Origin: Pocillopora verrucosa
Taxonomy: Eukaryota > Cnidaria > Anthozoa > Scleractinia > Pocilloporidae
Assembly: GCF_036669915.1 (NCBI RefSeq)
Contig: NC_089312.1
Location: 22,545,904 to 22,609,903, forward strand
Length of the DNA stretch: 64,000 nt
Reading direction: 5' to 3'
Shown: positions 1 to 51,669 of the stretch, one piece after another
How positions within the stretch are numbered: position 1 is the first letter of the stretch
Layout: every line of letters begins with the position of its first letter
Notes under the pieces: model-generated
Databases searched by the model: none
Seen by the model: the letters and a program-made list of their open reading frames with translations, nothing else
What the model was told of the DNA's origin: nothing
Made by a program: the position numbers and the translations under genes

Positions 1-266
1 AAAAAAACGGAAATTTTCAGGTAAACGAACGCTCCTTATTTACAATTATTTAACTTCGATAGGCTTGACTTTATGAGTCACGCTCTAGGAATTGAATCGA
101 CCGACTAGGATCCGAGCGCGATCGCACATAAAGTAGATGAATCAACTGTTGTAACACATGTTTTAACACGTAGGCGAACTGACATATGAGACGTAGGCGA
201 ATCGACTCTAACCGTAGGCGAACAGACCGTAGGCGAAACGACCCGTAGGCGAAACGACCGTAATTC
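1..266 (+). mobile_element. Right end of a TIR transposon, cut by the window edge
   Basis: Bases 1-266 repeat 3646-3911 almost perfectly at a constant offset of 3645. Both end in the same subrepeat-built terminus, in which the unit CGTAGGCGAA recurs about every 16-17 bases, and both finish with CGACCGTAATTC. This is therefore the right end of a second copy of the element described at 2719-3911, in the same orientation. Its left part lies outside the window. No coding capacity is visible. Confidence 0.75.
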
Positions 267-394
267 GTTTCAATTGACTTGATACCGTTCACAGTTTTCC
301 AGCAGTCAAACGATCATGGCCTTGGTCAAATAAGTGCAAGAAAATCTTTTCAGCTCTCGTGAATATCAAGTTAATTTTCAACAATAATACTTTA

Positions 395-1225: not shown

Positions 1226-4216
1226 CTACTGAAAGAATACGACGCCTTTTTTTCGGGGATCGGCAACGATAAGAAATGGCCCCGGAACAGCTAAACTGAC
1301 TGCAATAGACCAAGGGCAATCTATCTTATTGCTGCCAGCCGTGTTTAAAAATGTTCCATCCAGTCTGAAAACGTTCAACGTTTTGTGTTCCTCGTCGCAT
1401 ACCACCAGGTTGTTAAAGGTGTCGATGGCGAGTCCACGAGGCTTCCGCAGTTTTCCTTGATCGGAGTTTGCATTGCCTGTATCATAGAGAAATTTCCCAT
1501 CCTTATCAAATGCTTTAACACAACAAGCTGTGGGGTATGAAACGAAGAACTTGCCTTCATGAAAAATAGCTTCCCACGGGGAGTCATCGCAGTCTGGTAC
1601 ACTAAAAGACTGAAACAATTCTGTTCCTTCGGGAGAGAGGACCTTGACGGAATTGTCACCTGAGTCACACACTACCATGCGGTCATCACACGCAATAGTC
1701 AGTGAGAATGGAACTTAGAGGCGATTCAAATTATTGTCTATGCACTTAATAGACTCACCATCGGTAGAGAAATAACACATAGTGCCGGAAGAAATTACGA
1801 TGACCTCACCATAATTGTTGAATGCAACTGAAGTAGGATCTGATAGTTTTCTAGCCGCTGACCCCTTCTCACCCAGTTCTTTAAGATACTGGGAATCATT
1901 AAAGTCAAAAAGTCGCACCCTTTGTTTCTTTCGATCAGCTATTGCGATTCTCTTTGTCTCATTGTTTATTGCGAGAGCACAGGGTTCTTTAAACTTTCTG
2001 CCTTTCCTCAGTGACGCAAAATTGAAAGAGGAAGTATATTTATGCGGTCTAACACTTACATTCCACGGGCTGCAAGGAAGTGGCTGACCATTAACTAAAA
2101 CTGACACTTTATGTTCGCCATCACATTCTGGTGTAAACGTGACGCTTTATTTCCCACTTGAATGCAAATCGTCAACCTTGATGTCGATTTCCTTTCTCAC
2201 CGGACTGCAAACTGTCACTTTGATGTCATCGATTTCCAGGTAGCACTGTTTTCCAAAGGAATCAGTTGTCGCGATGTCAAACTCCATTATGCGTCCAGCT
2301 TCAGCTATTTTTAAGTTTTGACCTCTTACCAATGAATTCGAGGGGACGGTTTTACTGGCAAGAATTTTACCCGGAGCTGCACGTAAGAAACCTTGAATAT
2401 ACTTCTCATCACGTAGGTACCCAACGTGACTCGGCTTATAGAAGTCATTTTTATTTGATTTTAGAACACGTCTCGACTTTTCAATTTCGTTCATTTGGAA
2501 TTTCAAAGATTCAACATCAATTTTTCTTCCTATTGTCATCTCACAATTTTGCACAGCACTTTCCAATTCTTTTACCGACGTTTGCAAATGTTCATGTTGG
2601 ATTGAATGATCTTTTTCCTGTCTTTTTTCAATTATATCTAACTCAGTCATCATAAAGTTCTCGTGTTCCTTTAAAACTCGAATTAGTTCTTCAACGGTGG
2701 TACGTACATTGTTACGAGGGTATCCGGTCGTTTCGCCTACGGGTCGTTTCGCCTACGGTCTGTTCGCCTACGGTTAGAGTCGATTCGCCTACGTCTTATA
2801 TGTCAGTTCGCCTACGAGTCAGATGTTGAAGCTTTAAATCGGAATTATTAAAAGTCTTTGTTCCTTGTATTATTCCTTCCATTCTATCCTCGATGGCTAG
2901 AAAAACAACGCGCTAAAACATCTAAGTTCGTTTTTAAAAACTTTATTATGGCGGAACCCGGTCGTCTACGAATGTGTGAAAGATATTTTGCTTAAAATGA
3001 TTTAAGAAACGTGCGATTGTAAAACTGAGCATTAAGATGTGTATTAAAATGAAATTAACCACCGTTTACGGTCTTTGTGTGGTCGTGTAAAGCGCGAGCA
3101 GAGCAGTAAATAAACCACTGTTTACGGTCTTTGTGTAGACTTGTGAAGCGTGAGCGGCGCCTAAACTAAAGAAGGTGAGACTTTTCATTAACATATACGA
3201 AATTAACTTAGGCTTGACTTGACAGTCGGTTCAATTTCTGCGTCGATTTGGCGGGCGACTCGTTGAATCTTTTATCTCTATAAACTAGTTTATGTATGTA
3301 ATGTGTCCGGGTATTCTGAGTTACTCCGTTTGCGTACTTTCATCTAACAGACAAATAATATAAAAACTTAAAGCGTCCTTTGTGTAGACTTGTGACTTGA
3401 GCGGCGCTCATACTAAGGGAGGTGAGAGTTTTCATTAGCATACATAGTACTTACCACAAAATTAGCTTGTTCACACTACACAGCTTGATGTAACTTTTTA
3501 TTTCGATGTTGCGGCTTGTTAAATCGGTAATCATATTCATATACTTCGGACTAAGTAAGATAAATAAACGTTCGTGTTCACGTTTGGACTTGGTTCAAAT
3601 AACCAAGGTTTAGATTAAAGTAACAACCTACACAAAAGGTGGGGAAAAAAAACGGAAATTTTCAGGTAAACGAACGCTCCTTATTTACAATTATTTAACT
3701 TCGATAGGCTTGACTTTATGAGTCACGCTCTAGGAATTGAATCGACCGACTAGGATCCGAGCGCGATCGCACATAAAGTAGATGAATCAACTGTTGTAAC
3801 ACATGTTTTAACACGTAGGCGAACTGACATATGAGACGTAGGCGAATCGACTCTAACCGTAGGCGAACAGACCGTAGGCGAAACGACCCGTAGGCGAAAC
3901 GACCGTAATTCGTTACGAGCTGCAGCAATTTTATCTTCACTTATTCCAAATAGTTTTGTTATTTCTTTGATTTGCATCTCGACCTCTGCAATTTGCATTT
4001 TCACTTCTTCGACAGCATTTTGCAACTTCAATTTCTCTTCCTCTGCGGCCTGTTCGATACTCACTTTGGTGTGATTAGTGTGACGCGTTTGCTTACACTT
4101 GTCACAAATGCAAACCTTGCAATCCTTACAATAATACTTGAATGGCTGCGACTCGTGGAGTCCCTCTCTACATATGGCAGTGCTCTCTGACGGCCCTTCC
4201 GACTCAATGAATTTAC
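1226..4216 (-). pseudogene. B-box/coiled-coil/filamin/NHL exon, left copy, disrupted
   Basis: This is the paralogue of the intact exon at 16904-18666. The acceptor lies just before 4216 (TTCCTAAG|GT). The protein then runs in frame through a B-box (CREGLHES...YYCKDC...CICDKC...HTNH), a coiled-coil (3913-4090 and 2500-2707), a filamin-like domain (about 1990-2300) and NHL repeats (1226-2000). Three breaks are visible. A 1193-bp transposon sits at 2719-3911, a TAA stop lies near 2147-2149 at the coiled-coil/filamin side, and another TAA lies near 1715-1717 inside the NHL region. The pieces on either side of the element and of both stops share one frame, so decay appears limited to these events. 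No RING finger was found. It would originally have been spliced to the HEPN exon at 4955-5568. Confidence 0.8.
2719..3911. mobile_element. 1193-bp non-autonomous TIR transposon in the TRIM exon
   Basis: The element is flanked by an 8-bp direct repeat GTTACGAG (2711-2718 and 3912-3919). The paralogous exon has one copy of the equivalent site (CTTACGAG near 18361-18368), which marks the exact insertion point. The terminal inverted repeats are about 100 bp and nearly identical inside the outermost six bases. They consist of tandem CGTAGGCGAA-type subrepeats at about 16-17 bp spacing. The interior is AT-rich without a long ORF. An 8-bp target duplication is typical of hAT elements, but no transposase is present to confirm the family. 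A second copy's end lies at 1-266 and a shorter relative at 58329-59048. Confidence 0.8.
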
Positions 4217-4954: not shown

Positions 4955-5568
4955 CTTCAATTTCAGGTTTCTCTCTTTGAGTCATGCTTGATGTTTTCAA
5001 ATCAACTAGCATTTCAATGACCTCATCTAGTTTATCTTTCACATTTTCTTCGTCTTTCTTCCATTGGCTGAGAAGTGCTTTGTAGTGATCTTCAGTTTCA
5101 GGGTCCATACACTCAGTTTCAAGATCGTCGATGGCTGCTTTGTATTTCGCTCCACCCAGTCTCACTAGAGTGTCCCGGATGTCGCCCCAGCATGTGTTGA
5201 ACATTGCATCATCCACTGAAGCGCACTCAGCATGACCATATACAGTGTTCCTGTAATATTTAACTCGAGCGATATCAGCTTCAAGACTCACATCTGTTGC
5301 AGCAGGAAGTGTATCCCAGCCTGCCGCGGGAGAAGGTAAGCCGCACAGGTTTCGAAGCAGAACCATTAAAAGTGTGATATCAAAGTCTCTGGAAGACACT
5401 GAGGATGGAATAACAGAATAGAGCTTTCCCCATTGCGTTGCGTTGATAACCTTTCTCTTTCTCAGCGACTGTATAGTTGCTTTATTGGCTGCCAAAACTG
5501 ATTGAAGATTCGCTGGTGGATGGATGGCATTGAATGTGTCTCTAAGGGCCTGGGTACGAGAATGGCGC
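4955..5568 (-). pseudogene. DZIP3-type HEPN exon, left copy, 5' end altered
   Basis: The exon reads openly for 204 codons from 5567 to 4956 and ends at a donor G|GTCAGC (exon end 4955, phase 1). It is strongly similar to the HEPN exon at 19447-20131 and keeps the HEPN ribonuclease-type motif RNTVYGH. The first 27 or so residues of the intact copy, including its start codon, are absent. Homology begins at TQALRDTF, just after an AG at 5569-5570, so the upstream part is either lost or on an unseen exon. It would join in phase to the TRIM exon ending at 4216, but that exon is disrupted, so the gene as a whole is probably not functional. The exon could still be transcribed. Confidence 0.65.
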
Positions 5569-7933
5569 CTAAAAAAATAGTCAATAAAGTTTTACTCACT
5601 TTAAAACTTACGCATATTTTCAAAAGAATTCAAATAGTTCACTGGAATCCATAGGAAAAAGTGTTGGGTAATTAAGTTTTCGTTGCTGGAAACTAGCACA
5701 GCAAGGTTAAATCCTAGCCAAATTTTAAGTTTTGAGACTGCTGGGAAATTATTTAAGTCAGTTTTTATTATACATTTATCCTAAATCTAACCTCTCGTTT
5801 GAAACCGTTCGGCTCCTCGGAATATTTCCTCTTAACGAAACTATTTGTTTTGACGGAGTAGTTTTGTTGTACAATGATAGCTGAGAACATTAACTGTTAA
5901 AAATTTCTCTCATATGATGAAATTCTTGCAGTTTCTTGGCCAAACATTCTGCCAAAATTATCAATCTTTAGCTTATATAACACATATTTCGGTATATTTT
6001 GCTAAATGGAAGTTAAAAATTGCCGGAGAGAATGATCACTGCAACTTATTTGGTCGGAAACTGGTACTGGGTGGAAACTGAAAAAAAAGATTATTGAATG
6101 ATTTAACTAATGAAACTCAAACACCTAAAAGAGCTGTCTGTTTATCAGTACCGGCCTCGTGTAAGTAGGTCGTTTGATTTTTTGCGTCAAGGCTAGTGAA
6201 TATAACGGGGGTATTAGAAACAGATTTAATTGGTGGTAAAATGGGGGTTCGTACCTTAGTTAATATGCGCCTCACGCAGAGTACCCGTTCAACATGAGGT
6301 CTGCCTAATACAGTTCTCGCTATGAGATAATCCATTTGGAGTATTATGATTACTATCAGTTCCCAGTCTATCCCAGCCAAAATCTTCATAACTTATTGAG
6401 GTGTGAAACCGAACGAACGGTAATTTAACATACTTCGATCAACCTGAGAAATAGATCAATCGATTATAGAGTCAGTTGTCTATTGAATATGGTCAGACAG
6501 TAAAATAAAGGTCTATTTGAATGTAATGCCACCGTCAGATTGCATATGAAATGGCTAAAATCTCATCAGAATCGAGGGAAAAAATTCATGAAGTCCTGTA
6601 AACAAAATCGATCCCGATGTAAGTCGATTGTGACCGACTTGTTTGACTACTGATGTGGCTCCATGAACTCTTTCATTATCGATTATCGAACATTAAACCC
6701 CTGAGACCCTCTATTGAGAGAGAAACTTATGAGTTTCACTTGTGGTTTGTTATATTATGGTTTGAATAAGCCGATTAGATCGAATTAAAGCTGATATAAT
6801 TCAAACGTTCGTTCACCATGGAGGCGTCTTAGGTGAGCGCAAAGGCAGAATTCATGCGTATTTATGTCAAAATTGGATGTAGTTGAAGTTGCAGGGGTAA
6901 TTTAGACGTTATGAGGCTCTACAAACTCAAAATATCTGTATTTGTCAGACTACACCGTCTTCTTCACTCCCAGATTTTGTGGCTTATTTTGTTTCTACCC
7001 TCCTTCCTCAAACCTAGTCATATTCAATTCAACTCGAATAATCTAAAAGCTAATTATTACTGAGGCGAATCAGCTCTTGTAAATACCGCTTTTAGGCAAC
7101 GACGAGAAGTAGTTCACGGTATTAATCTTATAGGTTTATTGAGAATTGGGTCACTTTGGTATACCAGCTGCATGATTTTTGGGTTATGGAGACCATCGTA
7201 AACATGACATGGTAACAGCTCGCTTAAAGACGACGAAGTGAATTTGAATCCCGTAAAAATTACCAAAATCATTGAAAAGAAACGAAACTTTGAGCACGAG
7301 ATCGTAAGGTTTGATATGAAACTTTTAGTATTCAGTTATGCGTTGTCATGTTGTGATTCATGATCATATGTAGTTGCTCAAACTTAATTAAGCGAGATTT
7401 TAATTAGGAACGAGACTTTTGATTAGCGGATACTGCGAAGATTGTGAGGTTGAAAAAAGATAACCGATGTATAAATAAATGTACAACTGGACAAACAAAC
7501 ATACCTGCCGATCCCAATCTTCTTGTTAGCAATAAAATTCTAGGATAACGTGAATTCTGCGTTCTCCTGAATTAGGAAGTCGGTCACCGTGACCAAGTAA
7601 TTGCCCACAGCGGGTTTCTGCATCGTTGCTGTTGGCAAGAGATGGTACTGTTTGCTACCCAGGCTTCCTATGGCAAACAGCGGAGGAGACCTTACCTATA
7701 AAAGGTGGGTTTCCAACTGTTAAAATTTTCGAGATAATTTGGTTTTATCTACTGAGATTCTAAAGCTGACGTTTCGAGCATTATCCTTTTGTCATTAGCT
7801 CTGACGAAAGGAAACGCTCGAAATTTTAGCTCAAGAAACTTTCCACGGTGGCTACTTCACATTATCAACTAATTTGATAATTAAGAAGCGATCTCTGTAA
7901 GAGCGGTCCAAGGTATTTCGCATCGGAAAAAAG

Positions 7934-10297
7934 TTTTCCCTCAAACTTTGCCCAATAAACTATCTTTGGTAGCAAGTAAATAAAACCACATTAGTTTCTG
8001 GAAATACGTTAAAATAAAATTTTTAGAGCTCTCAAAAGTCAAAGCTGCTAAAGGCCCTTTTTTGACCTCTTGCAACATCGAAAATTTCAAAAGTTGAATA
8101 ACCTGGTCCTCGTATCACACCGCATGCAGCAAAAAGTCTTTTGCATTTTTAAACTGTGTGATATGTTAGGTGAATAAAAAGTATTTCAATTTTGATATTT
8201 GCTTATTCAGGGGTTCGTCATAATTTATTTAAAAACACTCGTTAGACAGCTTTCTGAAATTGGTCAAAAGTACTCTTTCCTTCTTGGTTGATATTGCTCA
8301 AGTCCAGACCAGACCATTGAAAACTCCGCTTGATTTCTTCTAATAAGATGTTTGGCTGCAGAAAAATATAAAAACATCTTGCACTTGCACCGGTATCGCA
8401 GAGGTCATGGGTTCAAATCCCGTAAAGGCCTGAATTTTTTTCAGGCCTTATTTTCACTACTGCCTAAGTAGTGCACATCACTGCGAGGATCACTTTCATT
8501 CATGTCTTTATCCGCAGTTCAAATATATGACTTTCATATATTCTTAACCGTATACTTATTAATTTTGTTCGCCGCGGTGACTTCAAACTTTCAGCGATTT
8601 TGCTAGCGTGACAGCCGATCATACAAATGAGTTCATTGAACAAACTCCGACCGTTTTATATAAGAAGCTCAATAAATCTTAGATTTTAACCATTTTAAGT
8701 TGAAAAGATAGTAGGACAGAGCTTTTAGACTACGCCGATTAATACTCTAAACATTTCAAAAGGCCAGAACTTGACAAATTTTATCCTCTCGTGGTAGTTC
8801 ATCATGTAAGTCCTGTGTCTGCGAGCATGACTTAAAGTGTTTATGGCAAAGTGAAGAGGGAGTGGGTTCATCACTTTCAGTCATTGTCATTAGAGGGTTA
8901 GACTGAACTGGTTGCAGTGGCCACAGAACCCTTGACAAGTGCTTCACAGCTCCCCATGGGATGGGCTCTTCATAAGAGAGGTGCAAGTGTATGGCTTTCG
9001 CAAAACGTCAGGTAGTACTTGACACAGAAATTTAATATTGGACGAGACACTGGTAGGAGACAAGACCTAGAGCAAGTAGCAAAGGACAAGCGAACTGTTT
9101 GCACTGTAGATGGAGAGAGAATGTTCGATGGAACAGAGCGATTATCCAACCTACAGATTCAGGGTTTCTTCTCGAGTTTGTGCCTTAAACGGCGATCTAA
9201 AATATAACAAGAATCGGATGATACCACAGACGCAGACGACGAAGACGACGACTTGATAGAGACATCCGCGTCTAATGTAGACGAAGGGTGTTTGAGAGAG
9301 GCCAGGAACACAGTAATGGATGAGATAGGACTGAAACATCCAATCATGTTTGATGTCTCTGATGTGTGCTCGTTGGCAAGAGAGTGAAGGTTGCCCAGCC
9401 TCAAAGTCAAGGTACTAAGAGACACGTGCAAACATTTTGAGCTCGCCTTCAAAATGCGAGATACAAAGATAACACTTCTTGCAAAAATGGAGGAAATGAT
9501 TTCGGAGTGGAGTTGTAATGCAGTCTAATTATGACGTCCACCCGTTATGCAAATGCAATATCCTATTTCACAAGAACTCTCCAGAGTTATGAACAGCGAC
9601 TGCTATGCAGACAGGTGTGACGACCAAATATCATTTGTTCCTGTCAGCTAGAAATCCGAGCAATCGCTGCTTTACTTAGACGTGAGAGGTATTCAGGACA
9701 ATTATACGATGGAATTACGTGACAGAGTCGCTGGTCAAGGTGCATTTCAGTGTGTGCTGTTATCGCCGGTTACACTAAATAGAATCCTGAAGTTTGGTTC
9801 TGAAATGTTCATACAGGTTTGAATAACGTAAGCTGTCAGAACTCAAATATGCATGAAATAGCAGAAGCCAAATTTTTAAGAAAGAGCTTGCCATTAAAAT
9901 GTTAAGCGAGCGCTAATCGAATTATGATATTGGATGCATTGTTGTTGAAGTCTTTCGTCACGAGAGGGTAAAATTTGTCAAATTCTGGCTTTTTGAAATG
10001 TTTAGAGTATCAATCAGCTTAGTCTTAAAGCTCTGTCCTACTATCTTTTCAACTTAAAATGGTTAAAATCTAAGATTTTAAAAATACAAAAGATTTTTTG
10101 CTGCATGCGGTGTGATACGAGGACCAGGGTATTCAACTTTTGAAATTTTCGATGTCGCAAGAGGTCAAAAAAGGGCCTTTAGCAGCTTTGACTTTTGAGA
10201 GCTCTAAAAATTTTATTTTAACATATTTCCAGAAGCTAATGTGGTTTTATTTACTTGTTACCAAAGATAGTTTATTGGGCAAAGTTTGAGGGAAAAC
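7934..10297. mobile_element. Long-TIR DNA transposon remnant with nested insertion
   Basis: The left arm (7934-8153 plus 8673-8793) is the inverted copy of the right arm (9958-10297); arm length is about 340 bp. The left arm is split by about 520 bp that includes a SINE, which shows nested insertion. The interior 8794-9957 holds scraps of an open frame on the plus strand: an acidic stretch DADDEDDDL near 9232 and HPIMFD near 9340, interrupted by stops near 9205, 9387 and 9525. These look like a decayed element-encoded protein of a family I cannot name. Confidence 0.6.
8387..8551 (+). mobile_element. 5'-truncated tRNA-derived SINE
   Basis: It begins inside the tRNA anticodon arm (CACCGGTATCGCAG), keeps the box B sequence GGTTCAAATCC, the GGCCTGAA...TTCAGGCC hairpin and the full tail ending CATATATTCTTAACCG. 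It is the same family as 395-545 (reverse orientation) and lies inside the split left arm of the long-TIR transposon, so it is younger than that element. Confidence 0.7.
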
Positions 10298-16903: not shown

Positions 16904-19900
16904 TTATAGAACTCTAATAAAGCTTTTTTTTTCAAGATCAGAAACGATCATTTGTACCAGTTCAATGCTTGGGTAGACAGCAATAGAGCAGGGACAGCCT
17001 ACAAGATGACTCTTAATGCTTTTTACAAAAGTTCCATCTGGTTTGTAAACGTTCAAAGCTTTGTTTCCCTCGTCACAAACTATCAAATTTCCAAAAACAT
17101 CAACAGCGAGTCCACGAGGCTTACTCAATTGACCTTCACCTCCATTCCCAATATCATATAGAAAATCCCCGTCATTGTTAAATGTTTTAACACAACCAGC
17201 TGTGGGGTAAGACACGAAGAACATGTCTTGGAAACAAACAGCTTCCCACGGGGAGTTATCACAGTCTAGAGCACTGAAGGACTGTAGCATTTCTGTCCCG
17301 TCAGGGGAGAGAACCTTGACTGACTTGTCACCTGTATCGCACACTATCATACAGCCATCTAACGCAATAGTCAGTGAAAAAGGAGAATTGAGAGTTTTGT
17401 TGTTGATGCACCCTGTAAATTCACCACTAATTGTAAAACAAATTACACTTCCAGAGGCAACGACAATGACGTCACCAGAATGGGTAAATGCAAGTGAGGT
17501 AATATTTTTTAGTTTAATCGCTGCTGGTCCATTCTGACCGAGTTCTGTAAGATATTCCAAATTCCTACTGAAAAGTTGCACCCTTTGTTTCTTTCGATCT
17601 GCCAAAGCCAAATTCTCTGTCCTCTTGTCTATTGCAACAGCGCAGGGTTCTTCGAATCGAGCTGTTCCAAATAATTTAAAGGAAGAATACTCATATGGAC
17701 TCGCTCGTAAAGTCCACGGACTACCTGAAAGCGGTTGACTGTTAATTAATACTGTCACTTTATGTTCTCCATCGCAGAGTGGTCTGTAATGATAGGTATA
17801 TGTCCCTTGGCAATAACTCATATACTTCAGGTCAAGGTCCATCCCCGTCGGAGTCTGAACTGTCACCTTGATCTCATCGATCTCCTGGTAGTAACATTCC
17901 CAGCCACGTGAATCACACGTTACAATGTCAAAGGGTGTGTATTTTCCAGCTCTAAATTTTCTCTCATAATGCCATCTTAAAATTGACCGTGAAGGATCAG
18001 TTTTAGTGACAAGAACTTCACCCGGAGCTTTACCTGTCAAATTCTCAATATAGTCTTTATCTGCCCCATAGCATAGGTGACATGGCCGATAAATGTCTAG
18101 TTTTAATGCTGTTAGAACACCTTTAGACCTCTCAATTTCAGCCTGTTGTGCTTGCACAGTTTCAACGCAAACGTTTTTGTGTAGAATTTCCTCGCAATTT
18201 CGCACAGAGCCTTTTAATTCACGTACAGAGGCTTGCAATTGCTCCAGTTGTGTCAAATAATCTCTTTGTTGGGCTTTTTCAATAAGGTCTAACTCGGTCA
18301 GGATGCTTCTTTCGTGCTCCTTTAATACACGAATGAGTTCTTCAACCGTCGTCCCAACATCCTTACGAGCTTTAGCGATTTTTTCCTTACATACTGTAAA
18401 TAGTTCTGTTGTTGTTTTAATTTCCACCTCAAGGTCAACAATTTGCATTTTCACTTGTTCTACAGTCTCTTCCAACTTCAGTTTCTCTTCCTCAGTAGCC
18501 TGTTGGAGGTTAACTTTGGTGTGATGTATGTGACGAGTCTCTCCACACCTGTCACAAATGGAAACTTTACAGTTGTTACAGTAGCCATCCAGAGGTTCGG
18601 TCTCATGGCCTTTTTCTTTACACATTGCTGAGTCTTCCGACAGCTCTTCCAGTACAGTGGATTTGCCTTAAGAAAAAGCAAATGAAAATTTGAAGTGAAA
18701 GTTAAGAAGTATTCAGCGCGTAATGGAATGTTCTCGTCTTGTCCCATTTCAGAAAGATATTGAAAAAAGATCTCACCAAGGATGTGCAGTTGTATTTCCT
18801 TTCATTCTAAAGCATTGCGAGTGCAAATGAATCGGCACGAAAAAAAACTTTGGAATTAATTGTACGTGTTAAAGAAACTATAATAGCCATCAAACTGACT
18901 GAGGTCAAACAACGCAAATGTTAACATTTGTACTTGAGGAAGAGGTCAGCATCTTGAATGGTCTTGCGCATGCCTTGTTGGGATAAAGAGGGCGCATTCA
19001 TCTACCTAGTAAAACTATACTGCTTAACTTTTCCTTCTCGAATGAAAACCTGATGAGCAAAAGGGTTCAGACTGATGTTTAAACACACCTATAAGCCAGA
19101 CGTTTATCTCACAATTACAATGATATTGTGAACGTAACATATACTAAGTACCTACTTGTACATAAAGGGGAACTTAAAGTAACTGATACCCCCATTCACA
19201 TAAGCAAAACATTTCAAATTTAACCGAATTTGACTGAGTGAAATCAGGAACAGAGAACTAAAAAAGTTCATTTTCCATATAGATTTCAAGTTGTAATTAA
19301 CTGGCTTCAGTATATTTTCAATGTTCTACATTGGAAGAAAAAATGAAGAAAAAAATCAAAACCGTGTTTAACAATACAGTTTTAAAACATGCTTAAGTTT
19401 TGAAAGAAAGAAAGAAAGAAAGTAGTAAAATCAAAGCCTCCCTAACCTTCGATGGCAAATTCCTTCCTTTGAGGCAAACTTGATGTTTTCAAATCATCCA
19501 GCTTTTTGATGACTTCATCTAATTTAGCTTTAACGTTTTCTTCATCCTTCTTCCATTGGCTGAGAAGTTCCTTGCAGTGTTCTTCAACCTCAGGGTCCAT
19601 ACACTCAGTTTCAAGATTGTCAATGTCTACTTTGTACTTTGCACCCCCAATTCTCACCAGAGTGTTACGGATGTCACCCCAGTATGTGTTGAACGTTGCA
19701 TCATCTATTGAAGCGCACTCAGCATGACCGTATACAGTGTTTCTGTAATATTTAACGCGGGCGATATCAGCTGCATGGCTTACGTCTGTAACAGCAGGAA
19801 GCGTATCCCAGCCTGTTGTAGGAGGATGTAGACTGCATACGTTTCGCAACAGAACCATTAAAAGTGTGATGTCAAAATTGGCCGATGAAACTGAAGAAGG

Positions 19901-20131
19901 GATGGCTGGAAAGAGCATTCCCCATTGGGTCGCGTTTATTACCTTTCTTTTTCTCAGAGATTGTAACATGGTTTTATTGGCTGTCAAAATTGTGTGAAGA
20001 TTGGCTGGTGGATGGATGGCATCAAATGTGTCCCTAAGGGCCTGGGTACCCACATCAACCAGCAGACGACATAGGCGAGCGTAGTTAGTTGTCTCCTTGC
20101 TCGAGGAACCTGTTGGTGCTGCGGTAGCCAT
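16904..20131 (-). CDS. HEPN-B-box-coiled-coil-filamin-NHL fusion protein
   Basis: Two coding exons: 20131-19447 (685 nt) and 18666-16904 (1763 nt), together 816 codons. The donor is G|GTTAGG and the acceptor CTTAAG|GC; phase 1 joins exactly and restores GGC, so the frame runs from HEPN into the B-box. The start is GCCATGG, just after an acceptor-like CCCTAG, which suggests a 5' UTR exon upstream. Domains: a DZIP3-type HEPN at about 15-228 with the ribonuclease-type motif RNTVYGH (R130, N131, H136); a B-box with C244, H249, C258, C261, C266, C269 and His 274-277; coiled-coil at about 285-400; filamin-type Ig at about 455-555 (GEHKVTV, SGSPW); and six NHL repeats at about 560-815, enough for a six-bladed propeller. 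No RING is seen, so ubiquitin-ligase activity is uncertain. HEPN domains are often RNases and TRIM-NHL propellers often bind RNA; a role in RNA control or antiviral defence is an inference. Confidence 0.85.
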
Positions 20132-20138
20132 GGCAAAC

Positions 20139-22994
20139 CTAGGGCAGAAAAAGAATATTTCAACGCTTAGGATTGCTGGACAAGACCCTTTTTAAAACGA
20201 GATACTTTAGCAAAAACTGCTTCGTGCGTTCATAGTGAGCTTTAGAGCTTGCAGCCCAGAAGCAATATGTGACGTCTTTGACGCAGGAAAATGGAAAACA
20301 AGATTTCCTTATTGCACTACCTCCAAGTTCAAGCTTTTCAAGTGAAACAAAAAAATATTCTTTTAAAATACTTCGAAGATGATAACGCTTGGTTCGTTTG
20401 ATACGATCAACGTTCATTGCTGAGCGTTTCAAGTAAATTGCACTTAGAGCGTTCAAAGATTTCTAGCACTTCGTTGAGAAGATAATAATAACAACAATAA
20501 AAAAAATAATAAGCAGTTAGTGGATATGCTGTAGCATGATATCATGAATTATCAAAACCGAGGTCTGAGTCATCTGCCGAAACAGAAGGCCGAGGCAAAT
20601 AACACAGACACGAGGTTTGATAATTCAGGATATCATGCAAAAATTGAATTCAATAAGTGCTTTATTATAACCTTTTTAAACAATCGCAAAAGAGGACACC
20701 TCTCTGAGTTTGCGAAAATTTGAGAACACCACACCGATGAGGGGCTTGGAAACTAGGTTTTTGAATATGATTACCCAATATCTGCCGCAGATATATATGT
20801 TATTTGCCGGCTGGGAGGTCCGTATGGTGAAAAACTGTGACCGAGGTCTTGAAAATGCTGTCACCGTTGCCTGTGGGCAGAGATAGGAAAATACTGACCG
20901 GGTAAAGAACCAATCAAATTGCAGGATTCGTCACCGTGCCCTCTGAGAAAAAAAATAAATTGGGTTATTGTTTTGAAATTGCCGGGAAATCGTTAAGTTT
21001 TTATTGCACATTTATCCTTAATCTAACCTCTCGTTTGAAACCGTTCAGCACCTCGGAATATTTCCACTTAAAGGAGCTATTTGTTTTGATGTTTTGTTGT
21101 ACAATGATAGCTGAGAACATTAATAGTTAAACTTTCTCTCATGCGAGGAAGTTCCTTCGGTTTCTCACTCAAGCATTCCGCCAAAATTATCAATCTATAG
21201 CTTATATAGCAGCTCTTTCGGTATATTTTGCTAAATAGAAGTTAAAAATGCCCAAGACAATGATCACTGCAATTTATTTGGTCACAAACTGGTACCGAGT
21301 GGAAACTAAAAAAATTGGTTAATAAATGTTTCAACTGATGAATTTCAAATATCTAAAAACAACTGTCTGTTTATCAGTACCGGCCTCGTGTAGAAAGTTC
21401 GTTCAGTTCATTTTTTGTGTCAAAGTCCATTGAATAATACGGGGGTATTGGAAACAGATTTATTTCGCAGTAAAATGAGGTTTTTTACCTCAGTCAGTGT
21501 CCGCCTCACGCATTGTAACTGTTCAACATGAGGTCTCCCTAATACAGTTCACACTATAAGATATTAGATTTGGAGCATTATGATTATTATGATTTCTCAG
21601 TCTATCCCAGCCAAAATCTCCATAACGTACTGAAGTGTGAAACCGAACGATTGGTAATTTAACATACTTTGATTAGCCAGAGAAATAGATCAATCGAGTA
21701 TAGAGTCAGTTGTCTGTTGAATATGGTCAGACAGTAAAATAAAGGTCTATCAAACGTTATGCCACTGTCAGATTGCATATTAAATCACTCAAATTTCATC
21801 AGATTCGAGGAAAAAATCACGAAGTCCTGAAAACAAAATCAATCCCGATGTAATTCGATTGTGCCCGACTTGTTTGACTACTGATGATGCGGTTGCATGA
21901 GCTCTGTCATTTTCGATTATCGGACATAAAACCCCCGAGACCTCTTACGGAATGGAAACTTACGAGTTTCCTTTTCGGTTGGTTATATTATGGTTTGAAT
22001 AAGCCGATGACAATGTATTTTGTAACTGAATCGTTATTGGACATTAGACTTGATATGATTCAAGTGTTCGTTCACCGTGGAAGCGTCTTAGGTGAGTGCA
22101 AAGGCGGAATTCATGCGTATTCATGTCAAAATTGGACGTAGTGGAAGCTGTAAGGGTAATTCAGACGTTATCAGGTCATACAAGCTAAAAGAAATGTATT
22201 TGTCAGACTACACCGTCCTCCTCACTCGCAGATTATGTGGCTTATTTTGTTTCTACCCTCCTTCCTCAAACCTAGTCATATTTAATTCAACTCGAATAAT
22301 CTAAAAGCTAATTATTACTGAGGCGAATCAGCTCTTGCAAATACCGCTTTTAGGTAACGATGAGGAGTAGTTCATGGTATTAATCTTAGCGGTTTGTTAA
22401 CAATTGGGTCATTTTGGTATACCAGCTGCATGATTTTTGGGTTATGGAGACCATCGTAAACGCGACATTGTAACAGTTCGCTTAAAGTTGACGAATTGAA
22501 TTTGAATCCCGTAAAATTACCAAAATCATTGAAAAGAAACGAAACTTTGAGCACGAGATCGTAAGGTTTGATATGAAACTTTTAGTATTCAGTTATGCGT
22601 TGTCATGTTGTTATTCATATGTAGTTGATCAAACTTAAGCAAGATTTTAAACGGGAACGAAACTTTTGATTAGCGGATACTGTGAAGATTGTGAGGTTGA
22701 AAAAAGATAACCGATCTATAAATAAATGTATAATTGGACACACAAACATACCTGGAGGGGACCGCTACCTGCTCCCTCTGAGTAAATCCACAACAATCTT
22801 TTTCAGCCCTTCCGTTTTTTCTCAGATTAACCTTAAAGGAACACTCTTCCCTACTAACTCTTCTTGCTGAAGTAAAGCCCTCTCGGCGCTGTTTGTTTCC
22901 TATACCCCCGATCGAGTCTCTCCCAAGATGTCCGCGTATCAGGAGGGAAACCTGGGGCGAGGTAAAGTTTGAGCACTTCCGTTGCCTTAATACT
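20139..22994. other. Intergenic duplicated block, no gene supported
   Basis: From about 21005 on this matches 5770-7500 of the left unit. The stretch includes a fold-back element at 20534-20638. On the minus strand, 22757-23000 is open and ends at a consensus donor CCAG|GTATGT (exon side near 22758); the frame is also open in the left unit (10673-10906). I could not find a matching partner exon, so I do not call a gene. Confidence 0.5.
20534..20638. repeat. Fold-back MITE
   Basis: The arms GCATGATATCATGAATTATC (from 20534) and the inverted match ending at 20638 pair over about 33 bp with a few mismatches, leaving a spacer of about 38 bp. No coding sequence is present. A small palindromic miniature transposon is the simplest reading. 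Confidence 0.65.
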
Positions 22995-29575: not shown

Positions 29576-32500
29576 ATGACACGAGCTACTAATACTACAA
29601 CGGAAAAAAGGTCCCAAATATTTTTGCCAAATATTTTCTTCAAATGTTTTTCTGTTGCTCTGGTATGTATTATCTCTTTCTGTGTTGGCTACTTCCTGAA
29701 TTCGAGTTATTCGACCAACCATCTAGAGATTGGAACGAAAACAAATCCGATTGAACGGAGAAATTCGCGTCACTTGCGTCCTTATCGAGAGCAACTCTTG
29801 GATTCGTTCAAGGCAGAAAATTTAGAAGAAACGTTAAGGTGAGGAAACCAAGTAATCCTTTTCAGAAATTGCGATTTTCTGGCAAGAGATCAACTCCCAT
29901 TATCGAAAACCGACCGACTGCTTTTGTTTGTTCTTCACAGGTATTTCTCCAAGGAGCCACATCTCGCTGGTTCAAAACGCAACAACGACTTAGCGCACCA
30001 CATTGCTACTAAATGGCGAGAGTATGGCTTTGATGAAGTTACAATGCCAAAGTATGATGTGCTCATGAGTTCACCTAAAAAAGATCGGAAGAGCCATGTG
30101 GAAATTCATCGTAATGGTCGTGTGATCTTTAAATCACAGTCTCATGAAAAGGTGATAACGGTTTGCTTGTTAACTGTCTTGTTATTTTGACTACTCTGGC
30201 TTTGATTTTTATCCTTTTGCAAACCCTGTAAAATGTAAATTAACGAGGCATCTGTGATACTACAAAATCTGAGTGTATCAGTTTCGCATTTAGATTCTTG
30301 AGTCTTTTTTTTAGTTTTACGCTTCGAGGCAGACCACCAAAAACTAAAATTATACAAAGATTCAAAATTTTTTAGGTGTTAGTGAAGTCGCCCTGACGAA
30401 GGGGTAACGCTCGAAACGTCAGCTTTTAAACTCTCAACGGTGGCCAACTAACGTTATCAACTCAGTTGATAATACCATATTACCATGTTATACTCTCCCA
30501 CCGACGCAACACCACAGTCTCTTCGGAAACTTACCCCCTTTAACAAAGAAGTGCATTGTCATCTAACGGCCAAGCTGTCTTTAAACTTCACCTCCAACAA
30601 AAAGATCCTTTCACAGCTGCTACATTTCACATTTCTTGTTTATCTTAACAGGTTTTACGTGAAGATGAAAAGAAAAGTAAAGATATCCCAATTTTTCTTG
30701 GTTATTCTCCCAGTGGGGTAGTGGAAGGTGAAGTTGTCTACGCCAACTTTGGCACTGAAGACGATTTTGAGAAACTGACAGCTATGGGAGTGTCTTTGAA
30801 AAATAAGATTGTTATAGCGCGACAGGGACGAGTATTTAGAGGAAACAAGGTATGCTATTTGTATTTAGAACTTAACAACCTTAGCGCAGATGTTACTGAG
30901 TTATGATTTGAGAGCTTCGTTGAATTGTTGTCTTTAACACTGCAATAGCTGTTGCACGCAATTTATTTCTTTTTTCGTCGGTTCTTTGAATCGTGGTTAT
31001 GACTGCGCGCGCTAATAGGTCGTAGGGGTAAGGGATCAGGGTTAGGTTGTTTCCCATTGGCTAATCTGCAGAAACTGCTTATAAAAGTTTGTCGGCTTGC
31101 TGAGTTCAGAGTCAGGTGTGGTCTTTTCATACTCTTGCGAGCAAAGAAAACTTCTGGTGCCAATGTAAGTGCGCTGAAAGTCGAAAGAGAAGAAAACAAC
31201 ATCCGTTCCATTCCCTTTGCAAATTTTTACAGTTTGCTATTATAAAACATTTTAAGGAACTATGGCTTTCTCTACCTTTGAAATCTTTTGAAACTGACTT
31301 TCAAGCAATTCCTGTCAAAAGAATGCGTATGTACTCTTCCATCTTTGATTACTAGGTAAACTATGGATGGATTAATATATAGATTTAGCCAAGCCTAGAA
31401 GCGGAGCTCGCAATTTTTTTTCCCGCACGTCCCAAGGGCACAACGCCTTGCAATTAGTCGCACTTGATTATGATAGTCACTCAAACTTCATTGTTTCCTT
31501 AAGGTCTTCAATGCTCATTCACACGGCGCCTCTGGGGCCCTCATATACACTGACCCTGCGGAGTTTGCACCAGAGGGAGACGGAAACACTTTTCCCAAAT
31601 CCTGGTGGCTTCCAGACTCCGGCACACAGCGTGGGTCAGCGATAAGTGAAACGGGGCCTGGTGACCCCCTTACCCCGGGCTTTCCTTCTGTGGATGGTAT
31701 ATACCGACAGCCATTGAACGAAAGTGGCTTACCACCAATTCCTGCCTTTGCTCTATCTTATGGCGACGCCAAAGAAATATTAAAGCGAATGAAAGGTTAG
31801 AAGCTTAGTGACGCCGAGATGTTGTTGTTGTCGTTTTTTTAGTTAATTATTCTGTGAGTCGCTGCAGGTAAAGAGCGACTCATTCAATTGACCAATACTG
31901 ATTTCTCTTGTGTTTCACTTGCAGTGACGCAGAATCTAAATTAGGTGCACCTTCACTCAGGCTTTCGGTTCTTCCTTCCGGGGTTTAATTTTTTTTACGC
32001 TAGGCCCCTTCACTTTTGAACTTTATCCAAAATTCAGAAATGTTTTTGAAACTTCAAGCTATTTTTATGACATTCGGAACTGACTTGCTTTCGGCCTATC
32101 CTCTCAATTTTTTCTTAAATTGATAAGGTCTTTTTTTTAGAAGTGCTGTCTGCTTGTCAGCGCCTTTGGCAGTTCGGATTAAGACATTCGAGAAAGAGAT
32201 AGTGGAACAGTGTTCGAAGGAGTTAATTTTGTAATAGGACTCCACTTATTTACCTCTCTCCACGTGGACTATATCCGTATTTTCAGAAGCCAATACAATG
32301 TCTATCATGTTCTTACAACTTTACTCGACAGGTCCTGAAGCCCCGAAGAGCTGGCAAGGAGGCTTGCAACTCACTTATCACGTCGGGCCGGGTTTTAAAG
32401 ACGAAGATCTTTCATTATGCTTGGATATTAGGAACAACATGGAGAATAAAACCATTACCAACGTCATTGGCCAGATCAGAGGCGCCGTAGAACCCGACCG

Positions 32501-33574
32501 TTATGTACTCATAGGGAACCATCGGGACGCTTGGGTGTTTGGTGCTGCTGATGCAGTTAGCGGTACGGCTGCAATGATGGAGTTGTCTCGTGGTTTGGGA
32601 GAGCTTCTTAAAACGGGATGGCGACCTCGCCGGACCATAATGCTCTGCAGCTGGGACGCGGAGGAGGTGTTTGTGGTTGGATCAGCCGAATGGGTTGAAG
32701 AAAATGCTCGAACTCTTCAAGATCGCGCTGTTGGTTACCTCAACATGGACGTGGCTGTCAATGGCAATTTCAGTATCAACGTTGATGCAAATCCTCTACT
32801 CCAAGACGTGGCTGTATCGTTGACCAAAGAAGTATGTGATCCAACAGTTTCGGACACTTGCAGAAGCATGTACGATGTCATGTTAGATAATTCTGCGATA
32901 ATTTGTCGTTCGGAAGTGATTACGTGTCGTTTTATCATTTCATCGGAGTCTCTTGTGCGGATTGGTCTTACATTTTCGGGGGGTTGTATGGAATAAGGCG
33001 ATCGTATCCAGTTTATCATTCCATTCACGATTCATATTACTGGATAAAAACCTTTGTCGATCCCGAGTTTAAGACTCACCTAGCCGTAACAAAATATGCA
33101 GGGATTTTTCTTCTTGAATTAGCAGACGTGGAGCTCTTGCCTTTCAACACTACAACCTATGCAGAACTGTTACAGAAAAAATCCACTATTCTAGAAAAGA
33201 GCAAACATCTCAAAACACACAGCATCAGCACGGCTGCCTTCTCTCGCGCGGTAAAGAACTTCGCAAAAGTTGCGCGTCAGTTTGAAAGCAGTAAGTCAAA
33301 ACATAAACCAGAGAGCTACCGCACGTTAAACGATCAAATGATACAACTAGAGAAAGCGTTTATTCAAACTGTGGAAGTGAATGATCATAAACAATTACGA
33401 CATGTTATATACGGTCCAAAGCTTGCCAATCTTTACGGCGGTATCTATTTCCCACGCGTACATTATGCCACGATGAAGGCCGAAAAGACGGGAGACTGGA
33501 AATCGGTGGAGAAAGAAATATCACTTTTGACATTTGCCATAAACTCAGCCTCGAGGGTTTTGAAACCGATATGA
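29576..33574 (+). pseudogene. Glutamate carboxypeptidase II-like gene with 31-bp frame-breaking deletion
   Basis: Exons: 29576-29838, 29941-30151, 30652-30849, 31504-31795 and 32332-33574, all with GT/AG junctions and the same phases as the paralogue at 36610-41571. Exon 1 encodes a short cytoplasmic end and one hydrophobic segment (FSVALVCIISFCVGYFL), a type II membrane anchor. Later exons encode the PA-like and M28 peptidase regions with HRDAWVFGAAD, WDAEE and NMD, which supply most zinc ligands and the catalytic Glu, and YHS for the last His. Exon 5 is exactly 31 nt shorter than in the paralogue. The gap falls at about 32888-32905, just after SMYDVML, and shifts the frame; the correct frame resumes at LSFGSDY. 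An AATAAA lies at 33788. It could be an assembly error or a null allele, but as it stands the protein would lose the last zinc ligand and the dimerisation domain. Confidence 0.8.
30385..30545. repeat. Dispersed repeat with GCTCGAAACGTCAGC core
   Basis: It lies in intron 2 of the plus-strand peptidase gene. The core TGACGAAGGGGTAACGCTCG, with a downstream CTCAACGGTGGCCAACTAAC, also occurs in altered form at 7755-7880, and its later part (CACCGACGCAACACCACAGT) matches 10555-10600. It is a fragment of an interspersed element whose full form is not in the window. Confidence 0.55.
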
Positions 33575-36609: not shown

Positions 36610-39600
36610 TTATATGGGTTTCAGAACATTTGCAGCAGAAGTAATGGCATATGTCAGCAAAGATATCTCTTTTTCCACCAATTTCCAATCTCCTGTTTTT
36701 TCCGCCTTGATCATGGCATAATGTACACGCGGAAAATACAAGTTATCGTACAGATCATCGATGTTGAGGCCATGTATTACATGTCTGGAAAGTTTCCAGT
36801 CGTTTTCTTCTACAGTTTGTATAAAAGCTTTTTCCACTTGCATCATTTGATCGTTCAGGATGCGGTAGTTCTCTGGTTTCTCATTTAACTTGCCTCTTTC
36901 AAACTGACGCGAAACTTTTGCAAATCTCCTCACTGCGCGAGAAAAAGAAACCGTGCTGATGTTATGCGCCCTTAGAGTAGCATTCTTTTCCAAGGAAACT
37001 GCTTTTGATTTTAAGAATTCTCCGTAACTGGTTGTGTTGAGAGGTAACAGTTCAGAGTCGGAAAGTTTGAGAAGAAATGCCCCTGCAAATTTTGTCACGG
37101 CCAGATGAGTTTGAAATTCAGGATCAACAAAAGTTTTCATCCAGTAAAACGTGTCGTGCACGGAGTGATAAACGGGATACGCTCTCCTGATGTTGTATCG
37201 TCCTCCAAAGATATAAGACCAATCTGCGCAGGGAATCCCAAGGAAGTGGTAAAACGCTCCATAATCACTACCAAATGACAAATCGTTACACACTGCGCGG
37301 CCATTAACATGTTTAGTTAAATCTCTCTCCAACATGACTTCGTACATACTTTTGCAAGTATCTGGAACTGTTGGATCACAAATTTCCTGCGTCAACTGTA
37401 ATGCCAAATGTTTGAGTAAAGGACTGGCATCGACATTAAGACTGAAATTACCATTAACAGCCTGGTCTATGTTAAGGTAAGCAACAGCGCGATTTTGAAG
37501 AATTTGAGTATTTTCCTCGACCCATTCCGTTGATCCAACAGCACCAATTTCTTCTGCATCCCAGCTGCACAGCATTATTGTCCGGCGTGGCCTCCATCCT
37601 TTTTTAATCAACTCTCCTAAACCACGTGATAGTTCCATCAACACAGCCGTACCACTAACAGGATCGGCAGCACCAAATACCCAGGCGTCTCGATGATTTC
37701 CCAGGAGTACATAACGGTCGGGTTCTTCTGCGCCCCTAATCTGGCCGATCACATTGTAAATGGTTTTGAATTCCAAGCTGCTGTTGACATCCACACGCAA
37801 AGTGAGGCTTTTGTCTTTAAATCCAGGTCCGATATAGTAAGTTAACTGCAAACCTCCTTGCCAACTCTTTGGTGCTTTAAGACCTATCAAATTAAATAGA
37901 AACTTCCTTTATACCCTGTAGACATATAAAGTTTTGGGAAAGATCACTTTCTTTTTAGGCGTTACCTACTCTTCAAACATTTGAAAAGACAACGGATGTG
38001 CGTGGTACTAAATCAAAAGAGAAAATTAGCAAGGCAACACAAAGCATGCAAGACAAAACTTCGTCAATTGATCGAACTAATAAATTTTCTAAAAATTTCC
38101 AGATGCAGTTACTCTCCATAAAAACGCACAGACGGACTTTCGATTTAATGAATTATCGTAACAGTTTAGCCAGAAAGGTTTTCTTGCTACACAGGGTAGG
38201 AAATTTCAGTTTTTTCTTTCCCTTCTTTGAAAAAACCTGGTAGGGCCTCAGGCCCTTAGTAACACCTTCCTCTTCCTGTGCTTGAAGCGTACTAACCTTT
38301 CATGCGACGCAGTATCTCCTGCGCATCCCCGTAGGATAGCACAATGGCAGGGATTGGCGAAGAACCATTGTTATTAAGTACCTCTCGGTAAATACCATCC
38401 ACAGAGGGAAAACCTGGGGTGAGTGGGTCACCAAGCCCCGTTGCGTTTCTTGCTGCTCCACGCTGGGCCCCAGAGTCAGGAAGCCACCAAGAGTGAGGGA
38501 AAGTGTTGTTGCCGGTTCCCTCCGGTGCATACTCTGCAGGATCGTTATAGATGATGGCCGCAGATGCACCATGTGAAGCAGCATTGAGAACCTTTAGAAA
38601 ATGATTTTAGTCTTTGGATTAATTCAAAGTAAGATCCTTTGTTGTTAAGTGCAAGACTCGATCGAGAGCCTGCAGTGTAACTATATTGATGAAAGGGAAA
38701 AAGGGAGGGGGGGAAGGGGTCATTATTTATTGCTGTGGGGGGGGGAGGTTGGAAGATTTTGGTTGTGTCACAATAAATTATCCTCTCATAAGGCTTTGTA
38801 TAATATGTAACATTCTTCTGACCCCACTAACCCTCCATTGGCAGCTAACTGGGAGTCAATATTTTATAGTCCTCCTTTACATTTTCTTGGCGATAATAAC
38901 CCTTGGTCTCCAAAGCTTAACTGATACTCAGTCGCTACAGGATGAAAACCGTGCGGCGTTAGGAACACGAACTGGCAGAGTGGTCAGGAAGTAAATTAAG
39001 GAGCTGATTGCACTCAGTAGTCAAATTATTTCGAAAACTAAGATTCTTGGGAAAGAGAGCATGTGTTTGTGTAACAGTGGTGCTCCTCTATCAGTGGTTG
39101 AATGTAAAAGGTTTTCTATGACGAGATGCGCATCAGCAGAGATTCCAACAACTCTATTACTACATGATAACTGATCTAACCCTGAAGAGGATACATTCTA
39201 GTCTAGATATATAGCGTGGGCGAAAGACGTTATGGAAAGTTTCACAGGCTCTCCTGGGACAGTTTCGGAGGATTTTGGTTGTTCCATGATAAAATTAACC
39301 CAATACCCCTAAAGCTCTGTAATGTGACTCTGTTCCCCCTTTCATAGGCACCTAACTGGTAGTCAATTTTCTAGACTCTCCACCCCCCCCCCCCCAGACC
39401 ATTAATGACGAATGGTCTCTTAAGTCAGTTACAAAATACATACCTTGTTTCCTCTATACATCTTGCCAATTCGCATAAGGACAATTCTATTTTTCACGGA
39501 CACGCCCACGGCTTGCAAATGTAAGAAACTCTCTTTATTGCCATAGTCAGCGTACACAACTTCTCCTTCTACCACCCCGTTAGGGGACTGAGCCAGGAAA

Positions 39601-51230: not shown

Positions 51231-51669
51231 TTTGTAAAGGAACGTTTGATCGCAATGTACAGTATCACACTCGAATACACTTATACATTTCAGCGCGTGC
51301 CAAGCATGTTATGTTGCCATGCAGTCGCCAAGGGACTAACGCAGATACCGCTGACATTCGCATCAAGACAAATTCCTACCAAGTGGGAGGTGTTGCTTAC
51401 GATTGAACTACAATGTTGCCTTGAGTCGTGATTCAATCGCTTTTTAGATAAATTAGAAACTACTCATAAAACCAAAAATTCAAACCGAAACACCGAAGTT
51501 CACTGGATAGATATGTTTTTGAAGGCTGAGGACTTGATACTGCATGTTGTTGATACTATCCCTACCCCCTAAGGTGCCTAATGGTTCGCGCGTCCTTGGC
51601 GCGTTGCACGACTGCATTTGACAACAACGGTTAAAAGCGGAGGCGACGATAGAAGAAGGATTGGACATC
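51231..51669. promoter_or_regulatory. Presumed bidirectional promoter, VWA gene / AKIP1
   Basis: The start codons of the minus-strand VWA gene (51230) and the plus-strand AKIP1 gene (51670) are 439 bases apart and point away from each other, so both promoters must share this interval or lie in unseen 5' exons. No TATA box is evident. GTTGCC at 51313-51318 followed by ATGCAGTCGCC resembles an imperfect RFX X-box, which would fit cilium-linked control, but only one half-site matches well. Confidence 0.5.

Follow-up and report, generated by a model that had tools for sequence, protein, structure and literature searches.

TRIM proteins are regarded as ubiquitin ligases of the RING type, and a gene of the stony coral Pocillopora verrucosa raises the question of whether the RING end of such a protein can be replaced while the body behind it is kept. 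The gene, here called gene A, lies on the minus strand within a 64,000-nucleotide stretch of contig NC_089312.1 (positions 22,545,904 to 22,609,903; hereafter the window), and it combines a HEPN domain with a B-box, a filamin repeat and an NHL region and has no RING. This observation is confirmed, and it concerns a small family and not a lone accident. With a probability of roughly 0.55, we read gene A as a class VII TRIM-NHL gene in which a DZIP3-type HEPN domain, encoded by a first exon that is spliced on, has taken the place of RING and B-box1, and whose product would most likely be an immune sensor with HEPN as its effector.

Exon 1 (20131-19447) and exon 2 (18666-16904) of gene A join into 815 codons with a single terminal stop, and the parts are as follows.

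19447-20131, minus strand: exon 1, starting with ATG, with the DZIP3-type HEPN domain; 228 codons plus one base, ending in GAAG
19724-19744, minus strand: R130-N131-x4-H136 motif (RNTVYGH, residues 130-136)
18667-19446, minus strand: phase-1 GT-AG intron, donor GTTAGG, acceptor CTTAAG; no RING found within it
16904-18666, minus strand: exon 2, with B-box, coiled coil, filamin, NHL and the stop TAA
18509-18631, minus strand: B-box zinc finger (Pfam zf-B_box, residues 241-281, E 1.5e-6)
18107-18508, minus strand: coiled coil; TRIM_CC (residues 306-393) below cut-off, helices predicted at residues 53-163 and 167-186 of exon 2
17711-17998, minus strand: filamin repeat (Pfam Filamin, residues 452-547, E 1.4e-9)
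16907-17674, minus strand: NHL beta-propeller region, with one NHL repeat above cut-off (Pfam, residues 742-766, E 8.8e-5)

The initial annotation had proposed an 815-residue frame whose two exons meet in exact phase, and both its coordinates and the phase (phase 1) proved correct. Its HEPN, B-box, filamin and NHL in one frame were recovered by the Pfam domain search, in which HEPN_DZIP3 (PF18738) matched residues 42-185 at E 1.7e-61 (206.6 bits against a curated cut-off of 27), and the RN-x4-H motif it had called intact is present, in keeping with the R-x4-6-H pattern of the domain. As it had also stated, the TRIM-NHL body lacks a RING: neither RING nor NACHT was listed for gene A by Pfam at E up to 1. 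The order of B-box, coiled coil, filamin and NHL is the same as in class VII TRIM-NHL proteins (TRIM71/LIN-41, TRIM2/3, Brat and thin), whereas gene A has neither RING nor B-box1 and instead carries an N-terminal HEPN from a separate exon. Among solved chains, exon 2 matched TRIM71 (E 8.6e-28), TRIM3 (3.7e-23) and TRIM2 (7.3e-22), and also thin and Brat; the NHL region matched TRIM3 (9.1e-26), thin (5.9e-25), TRIM2 (8.1e-25) and TRIM71 (1.2e-23).

HEPN-type and RING-type bodies in the genome

The survey of architectures covered one genome, the window's own (353 Mb, 52 contigs), and its counts are lower bounds, with 75 of 372 candidates scored for the exon-2 body, 150 of 267 for HEPN_DZIP3, 150 of 240 for the HEPN exon and 150 of 282 for the RING and B-box1 of a relative. 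The HEPN_DZIP3 matches (150 of the 267 candidates scored) were clustered in the genome. Among the 75 scored bodies, RING and B-box1 were found upstream of 58, a HEPN exon upstream of 14, neither upstream of three and both upstream of none, in agreement with the initial annotation, which had placed HEPN where the RING would be; the typed lists behind these counts comprised HEPN and RING rows from chromosomes or stretches with a scored body. The distance to the body was -45 to 446 bases (median 7) for RING and B-box1 in the 58 bodies, and 218-2237 bases, on the same strand, for the HEPN exon in the 14. As controls, HEPN was found downstream within 3 kb in 1/75 and on the opposite strand within 4 kb in 0/75.

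Two RING-type relatives, L042 on C14 and L043 on C8, contain RING, B-box1, B-box2, coiled coil, filamin and NHL in single open frames of 753 and 736 residues, respectively. Their bodies are homologous to that of gene A, whereas their RING and B-box1 share one open frame with the body. The single B-box of the HEPN type aligns by eye with B-box2 of these two relatives and the sequences are collinear from B-box2 onward; thus the HEPN exon occupies the place of RING and B-box1.

The 14 HEPN-type rows correspond to 13 genes, seven on C1 (T1, T2, a broken one at 22517238, T4, T5, gene B and gene A), three on C9 and three on C7. Among the matches scored, 10 of the 13 HEPN exons next below that of gene A in score head TRIM-NHL bodies, and the other three comprise one on C11 with NACHT behind it and two on C7, where a body was neither seen nor looked for; the HEPN of T1 and that at 22518656 scored much lower.

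A phase-1 GT-AG intron was readable by eye in nine of ten copies (A, B, T2, T4, T5, C9a, C9b, C7a and C7b), where it links the HEPN exon to a body starting at, or slightly before, the B-box. From this conserved phase together with the selection described below, we infer that the HEPN exon is spliced to the body. The same layout could arise from two adjoining, separately transcribed genes, one for a HEPN-only protein and one for a RING-less B-box/NHL protein; HEPN exons without a nearby body do exist (T3, and L028 on C7), and unspliced, exon 1 of gene A would stop at the second codon past its last whole codon (GGT TAG). We nevertheless regard two genes as very unlikely. In A, B and T5 an in-frame TAA sits right at the acceptor and closes the reading frame of exon 2, and in T4 no Met precedes the B-box, so that exon 2 is unlikely to be a gene of its own; moreover, phase 1 recurs in those nine copies, and 14 of the 75 bodies are preceded by HEPN in the same orientation, none of them along with RING.

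A RING-encoding exon spliced between the two exons, an arrangement that the initial annotation had itself raised, was not found either. By tblastn with nine RING plus B-box1 queries, no match was obtained in eight of ten HEPN-type gene spans, including gene A, and only weak matches were obtained in the spans of B (E 0.46) and C7b (E 0.22), while the two control loci were detected at 1.3e-107 and 1.5e-102 by their own queries and at 3.8e-82 and 3.6e-56 by the best other query. In the eight other HEPN-type bodies scanned, no RING was found at E up to 0.01.

Probable exchange of the head and other carriers of the HEPN exon

A tree of bodies was built from 16 rows, eight of HEPN type (two of them partial, and broken copies excluded) and eight of RING type, with L034 excluded, its body having been cut wrongly. 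The RING-bearing body of L042 grouped with the HEPN-bearing C9a and C9b (support 100/99), being 60% identical to C9a and 37% identical to gene A. The grouping of all HEPN-bearing bodies in a single clade, tested after the first tree had been inspected, was rejected (log-likelihood 59.00 lower; approximately unbiased test, p-AU 1.5e-5), and the well-supported branches require at least two changes of head. Since a body with RING sits inside a group of bodies with HEPN, and since the data reject a single HEPN clade, more than one exchange of the head is probable, although conversion between bodies could yield the same pattern. In the tree of HEPN exons, those of C1, C9 and C7, including two without a body, were split by a branch (96/98) from those with NLR and GTPase-like neighbours; taken alone, this tree is compatible with a single recruitment, which speaks against a repeated exchange.

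Silent divergence was then compared between the two exons. Between A and C9a it was lower in the HEPN exon, 0.489 (0.404-0.575), than in the body, 0.725 (0.662-0.785), and for C9a against each of A, T5, T4 and T2 the HEPN exon was the less diverged, with 0/500 resamples reversed in each pair. The same resampling gave 0.016 for T1-C9a and 0.500 for C9a-C7a. Within C1, six of ten pairs were at 0.05 or above, with T4-T2 in the opposite direction (0.780), and those below 0.05 were A-T2 (0.000), T4-T1 (0.008), T2-T1 (0.020) and A-T5 (0.040); with C7a, five of six pairs were above 0.05, the other being T5-C7a (0.020). At the DNA level, A and C9a resemble each other throughout the exon, starting at its ATG, and again over 203 bases of the NHL part, in a comparison that extended some 100 bases upstream of C9a. 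The smaller silent divergence seen in HEPN exons could partly reflect stronger codon constraint and not younger age. Taken together, the trees and the silent divergence may be read as a spread or conversion of the HEPN exon among TRIM-NHL bodies, or as a return of the RING in the C14 line.

HEPN exons of this type also lie in front of other frames. We inspected 15 HEPN places (L014-L028; on C7, C8 and C11), mostly the top-scoring ones of the HEPN_DZIP3 list and no random sample, by scanning their longer frames, with Pfam covering all but the downstream frames of L016 and L028. Behind the 15 exons stood NACHT in nine, leucine-rich repeats (LRR) without NACHT in one, a GTPase-like frame in two (L023 slightly above and L026 slightly below the MMR_HSR1 cut-off) and nothing recognised in three, and a TRIM body in none. 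At L020, one of the three without a recognised partner, a retrotransposon frame (5486-8881) with endonuclease, reverse transcriptase and a PHD match lies downstream of the HEPN exon.

HEPN-NACHT expansions or proteins are described from corals and anemones (PMC8260672, PMC10236652) and from the pearl oyster (PMC9646362), with one HEPN-NACHT protein in Aplysia (PMC9334734). The HEPN-NACHT(-LRR) receptors described from cnidarians and bivalves (PMC8260672, PMC10236652, PMC9646362) resemble gene A in their N-terminal DZIP3-type HEPN, whereas their sensor consists of NACHT with LRR or other repeats and that of gene A of B-box, filamin and NHL; in this genome, as read from the frames, the NACHT frames follow separate HEPN exons. 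The survey of the DZIP3/hRUL138 HEPN family (Anantharaman 2013, PMC3710099) reports expansions in animals and fusions to TPR, Zn-ribbon, RING, ankyrin, CARD, NACHT, DEATH and LRR. Gene A shares this HEPN family, whereas fusions to B-box, filamin or NHL are absent from the passage on fusions, and B-box, NHL and TRIM do not occur in the main text. HEPN and B-box are also described among the domains of TRADD-N proteins, a different architecture (PMC8195603), and NHL and B-box orthogroups, without HEPN, are reported as expanded in merulinid corals (PMC11639872). Among the openly available articles listed, judged by title and opening of the abstract, with subscription papers and preprints outside the search, no description of HEPN with B-box, filamin and NHL was found.

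We propose, tentatively and at somewhat less than even odds, that the HEPN exon is an exchangeable phase-1 effector cassette, by whose gain or loss ligase TRIM-NHLs would repeatedly have become RNA-cutting ones, or the reverse, within one animal lineage, and that cassettes of this type also equip NACHT-LRR and GTPase-like proteins. If so, the effectors of TRIM sensors and those of NLR sensors would come from a common set.

A possible immune sensor and the evidence for and against it

For the protein itself, the mode of action that we consider likeliest is as follows. The filamin-NHL part would recognise a ligand, more likely a protein or another surface than RNA, and the B-box and coiled coil would hold copies of the protein together in dimers or larger assemblies, TRIM coiled coils being antiparallel dimers. 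HEPN RNases work as dimers; clustering would pair the HEPN domains, whose R-N-x4-H motifs could together make an RNA-cutting site. Local defence would then consist in the cleavage of RNA, viral or host-derived, at this site. The transcripts, oligomerisation, RNase activity, immune role and ligand of the HEPN-type proteins are all predictions from sequence. The initial annotation had suggested an RNA-targeting immune or regulatory factor, and its two halves fared differently. What makes an immune role plausible is that this type of HEPN exon has NACHT frames behind it at nine of the 15 places and that the family is tandemly repeated. The targeting of RNA by the NHL propeller found no support: the NHL region of gene A is acidic (23 Lys plus Arg against 29 Asp plus Glu; isoelectric point, pI, 5.0), whereas in NHL domains that bind RNA the top surface is basic (PMC9070667), so that RNA recognition by this NHL is doubtful. 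Measured on the last 255 residues, NHL pI ranged over 5.0-8.0 in the six HEPN-type rows with a complete NHL (T5 and C9b, whose rows stop short of the C terminus, were omitted) and over 5.1-9.3 in nine RING-type rows. The AlphaFold model of gene A exon 2 (mean predicted local distance difference test score, pLDDT, 53.4) was too poor for a fold search or for reading the NHL surface.

The ratio of non-synonymous to silent substitution (dN/dS), calculated by our own script for the NG86 method, was lower in the HEPN exon (A-T5 0.175, A-T4 0.172, A-T2 0.263) than in the body (0.328, 0.372 and 0.390, respectively), and over all computable pairs it ranged over 0.09-0.38 in HEPN and 0.20-0.44 in the body. 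The B-box was the most constrained part of the body (0.12 in A-T2 and 0.05 in A-T4), with coiled coil, filamin and NHL at 0.30-0.52. Such a pattern, in which the effector is conserved and the sensor changes faster, suits an immune receptor, without proving it. The likeness of the body to TRIM71, thin, TRIM2/3, Brat and Mei-P26 could instead point to a developmental regulator of mRNA, akin to Brat or LIN-41/TRIM71, that carries its own nuclease. We consider this improbable, given the acidic NHL, the ratio of body to HEPN-exon dN/dS (1.5-2.2 in A-T5, A-T4 and A-T2) and the tandem clusters with broken copies, which are unusual for developmental regulators.

The RN-x4-H motif bears on a further alternative, in which HEPN is an adaptor or an RNA-binding, oligomerising domain without RNase activity that signals via partners such as HEPN-NLRs. 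The N-terminal domains of NLR-type receptors are often homotypic adaptors, and NACHT-LRR frames stand behind the same HEPN type. The domain is termed RNA-binding (PMC10236652) and the motif of the DZIP3 family is given as 'mostly conserved' (PMC3710099). Against an adaptor, R and N are kept in 11/11 and H in 10/11 of the aligned C1, C7 and C9 copies, and RN-x4-H in 25/26 HEPN places, counted with a search pattern in which the R was fixed; the one deviating place is T3 (L011, C1 22508823-22509455), a HEPN exon without a nearby body that reads RNTVYAY, with His changed to Tyr. On balance, we regard the adaptor as unlikely. The identification of the fold rests on the Pfam match because the AlphaFold model was poor, and by phmmer against solved structures the HEPN exon gave a chance match only (E 0.74). 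Searches for a relative outside animals yielded 46 pattern matches in a viral contig collection and 26 in a genome contig collection, none of which was confirmed.

Several observations weigh against the reading of gene A as a HEPN-armed immune sensor. Besides the acidic NHL, the AlphaFold models of the HEPN exon (two window copies) were all-helical with a mean pLDDT of only 47.7, too poor for a fold search, and HEPN may bind RNA or signal without cutting. In addition, both exons are open with a fitting junction in only five of the 13 HEPN-type genes (A, T2, T4, C9a and C7a). Stops interrupt gene B (two), the C9 copy at 18035978 (seven), the C7 copy at 23322502 (11) and the HEPN of the C1 copy at 22517238 (three), and the bodies of C9b and C7b are interrupted; that of C7b has no B-box match and shows a weak IBR match (E 0.008; 16.7 bits against a cut-off of 24.3). 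T1, a divergent copy, lacks both a fitting phase-1 junction and a B-box match, and the body of T5 (L013 7832-6073) spreads over two overlapping frames, owing perhaps to a frameshift, to a small intron or to an error of assembly. With eight of 13 genes broken, degenerate or not fitting, the family could be taken as a decaying set of non-functional chimeras, which is hardly credible in view of the five genes open in both exons and of dN/dS well below 1.

Under the reading of an immune sensor, the RING end would have been swapped for a probable nuclease with the sensing body retained, apparently more than once. If confirmed, this would be a natural swap experiment on what the TRIM scaffold contributes and would mean that one effector exon can serve both TRIM and NLR immunity; it would also supply a compact RNase as an antiviral candidate in a reef-type animal, a kind of host about whose intracellular immunity little is known.

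Gene B and other features of the window

A second HEPN-type copy in the window, which the initial annotation of gene A had not mentioned, is gene B (5591-1226). It is a broken paralogue, with its donor at the same position as in gene A (GGTCAG against GGTTAG in A) and the TAAG acceptor of A. Its parts, and a segment shared with gene A, are as follows.

4955-5558, minus strand: HEPN exon without its first 28 codons (HEPN_DZIP3 E 8.8e-63)
3912-4216, minus strand: B-box part of exon 2 (zf-B_box E 1.9e-9)
2719-3911, minus strand: insertion of about 1.2 kb in the coiled coil, with 95-nt terminal inverted repeats and CTCGTAAC on both flanks
1226-2718, minus strand: remaining coiled coil, filamin and NHL, with two in-frame TAA; Filamin below and NHL above cut-off
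20970-21494, minus strand: segment upstream of gene A, 81% like gene B 6260-5729 and in part like T2; possibly a promoter or 5' region

The arms of the insertion (2725-2819 and 3811-3905) are 98% alike and rich in CGTAGGCGAA, and its ends and the 8-bp duplication CTCGTAAC were read by eye; the element is presumably hAT-like. Window positions 1-269 are 100% identical to 3646-3914, and a second copy of the element thus starts at the left edge of the window. At about 4563-4523, the intron of gene B holds a short second copy of the 3' tail of the HEPN exon (41 bases, 80%), and the long exon-1 frame of T4 (L012) looks, by eye, related to this intron.

Elsewhere in the window, a tRNA-Thr (GGT) at 467-539 lies near 53-nt inverted repeats (592-644/701-753) and a 56-nt direct repeat (394-449/643-698), and this area is perhaps a tRNA-derived repeat. 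Two inverted copies of one frame (32238-33574, plus strand; 36610-37908, minus strand) read like glutamate carboxypeptidase II/NAALADase, an M28 peptidase, which we presume them to encode, and the open frame at 50199-51308 (minus strand) is presumably that of a von Willebrand A domain protein.

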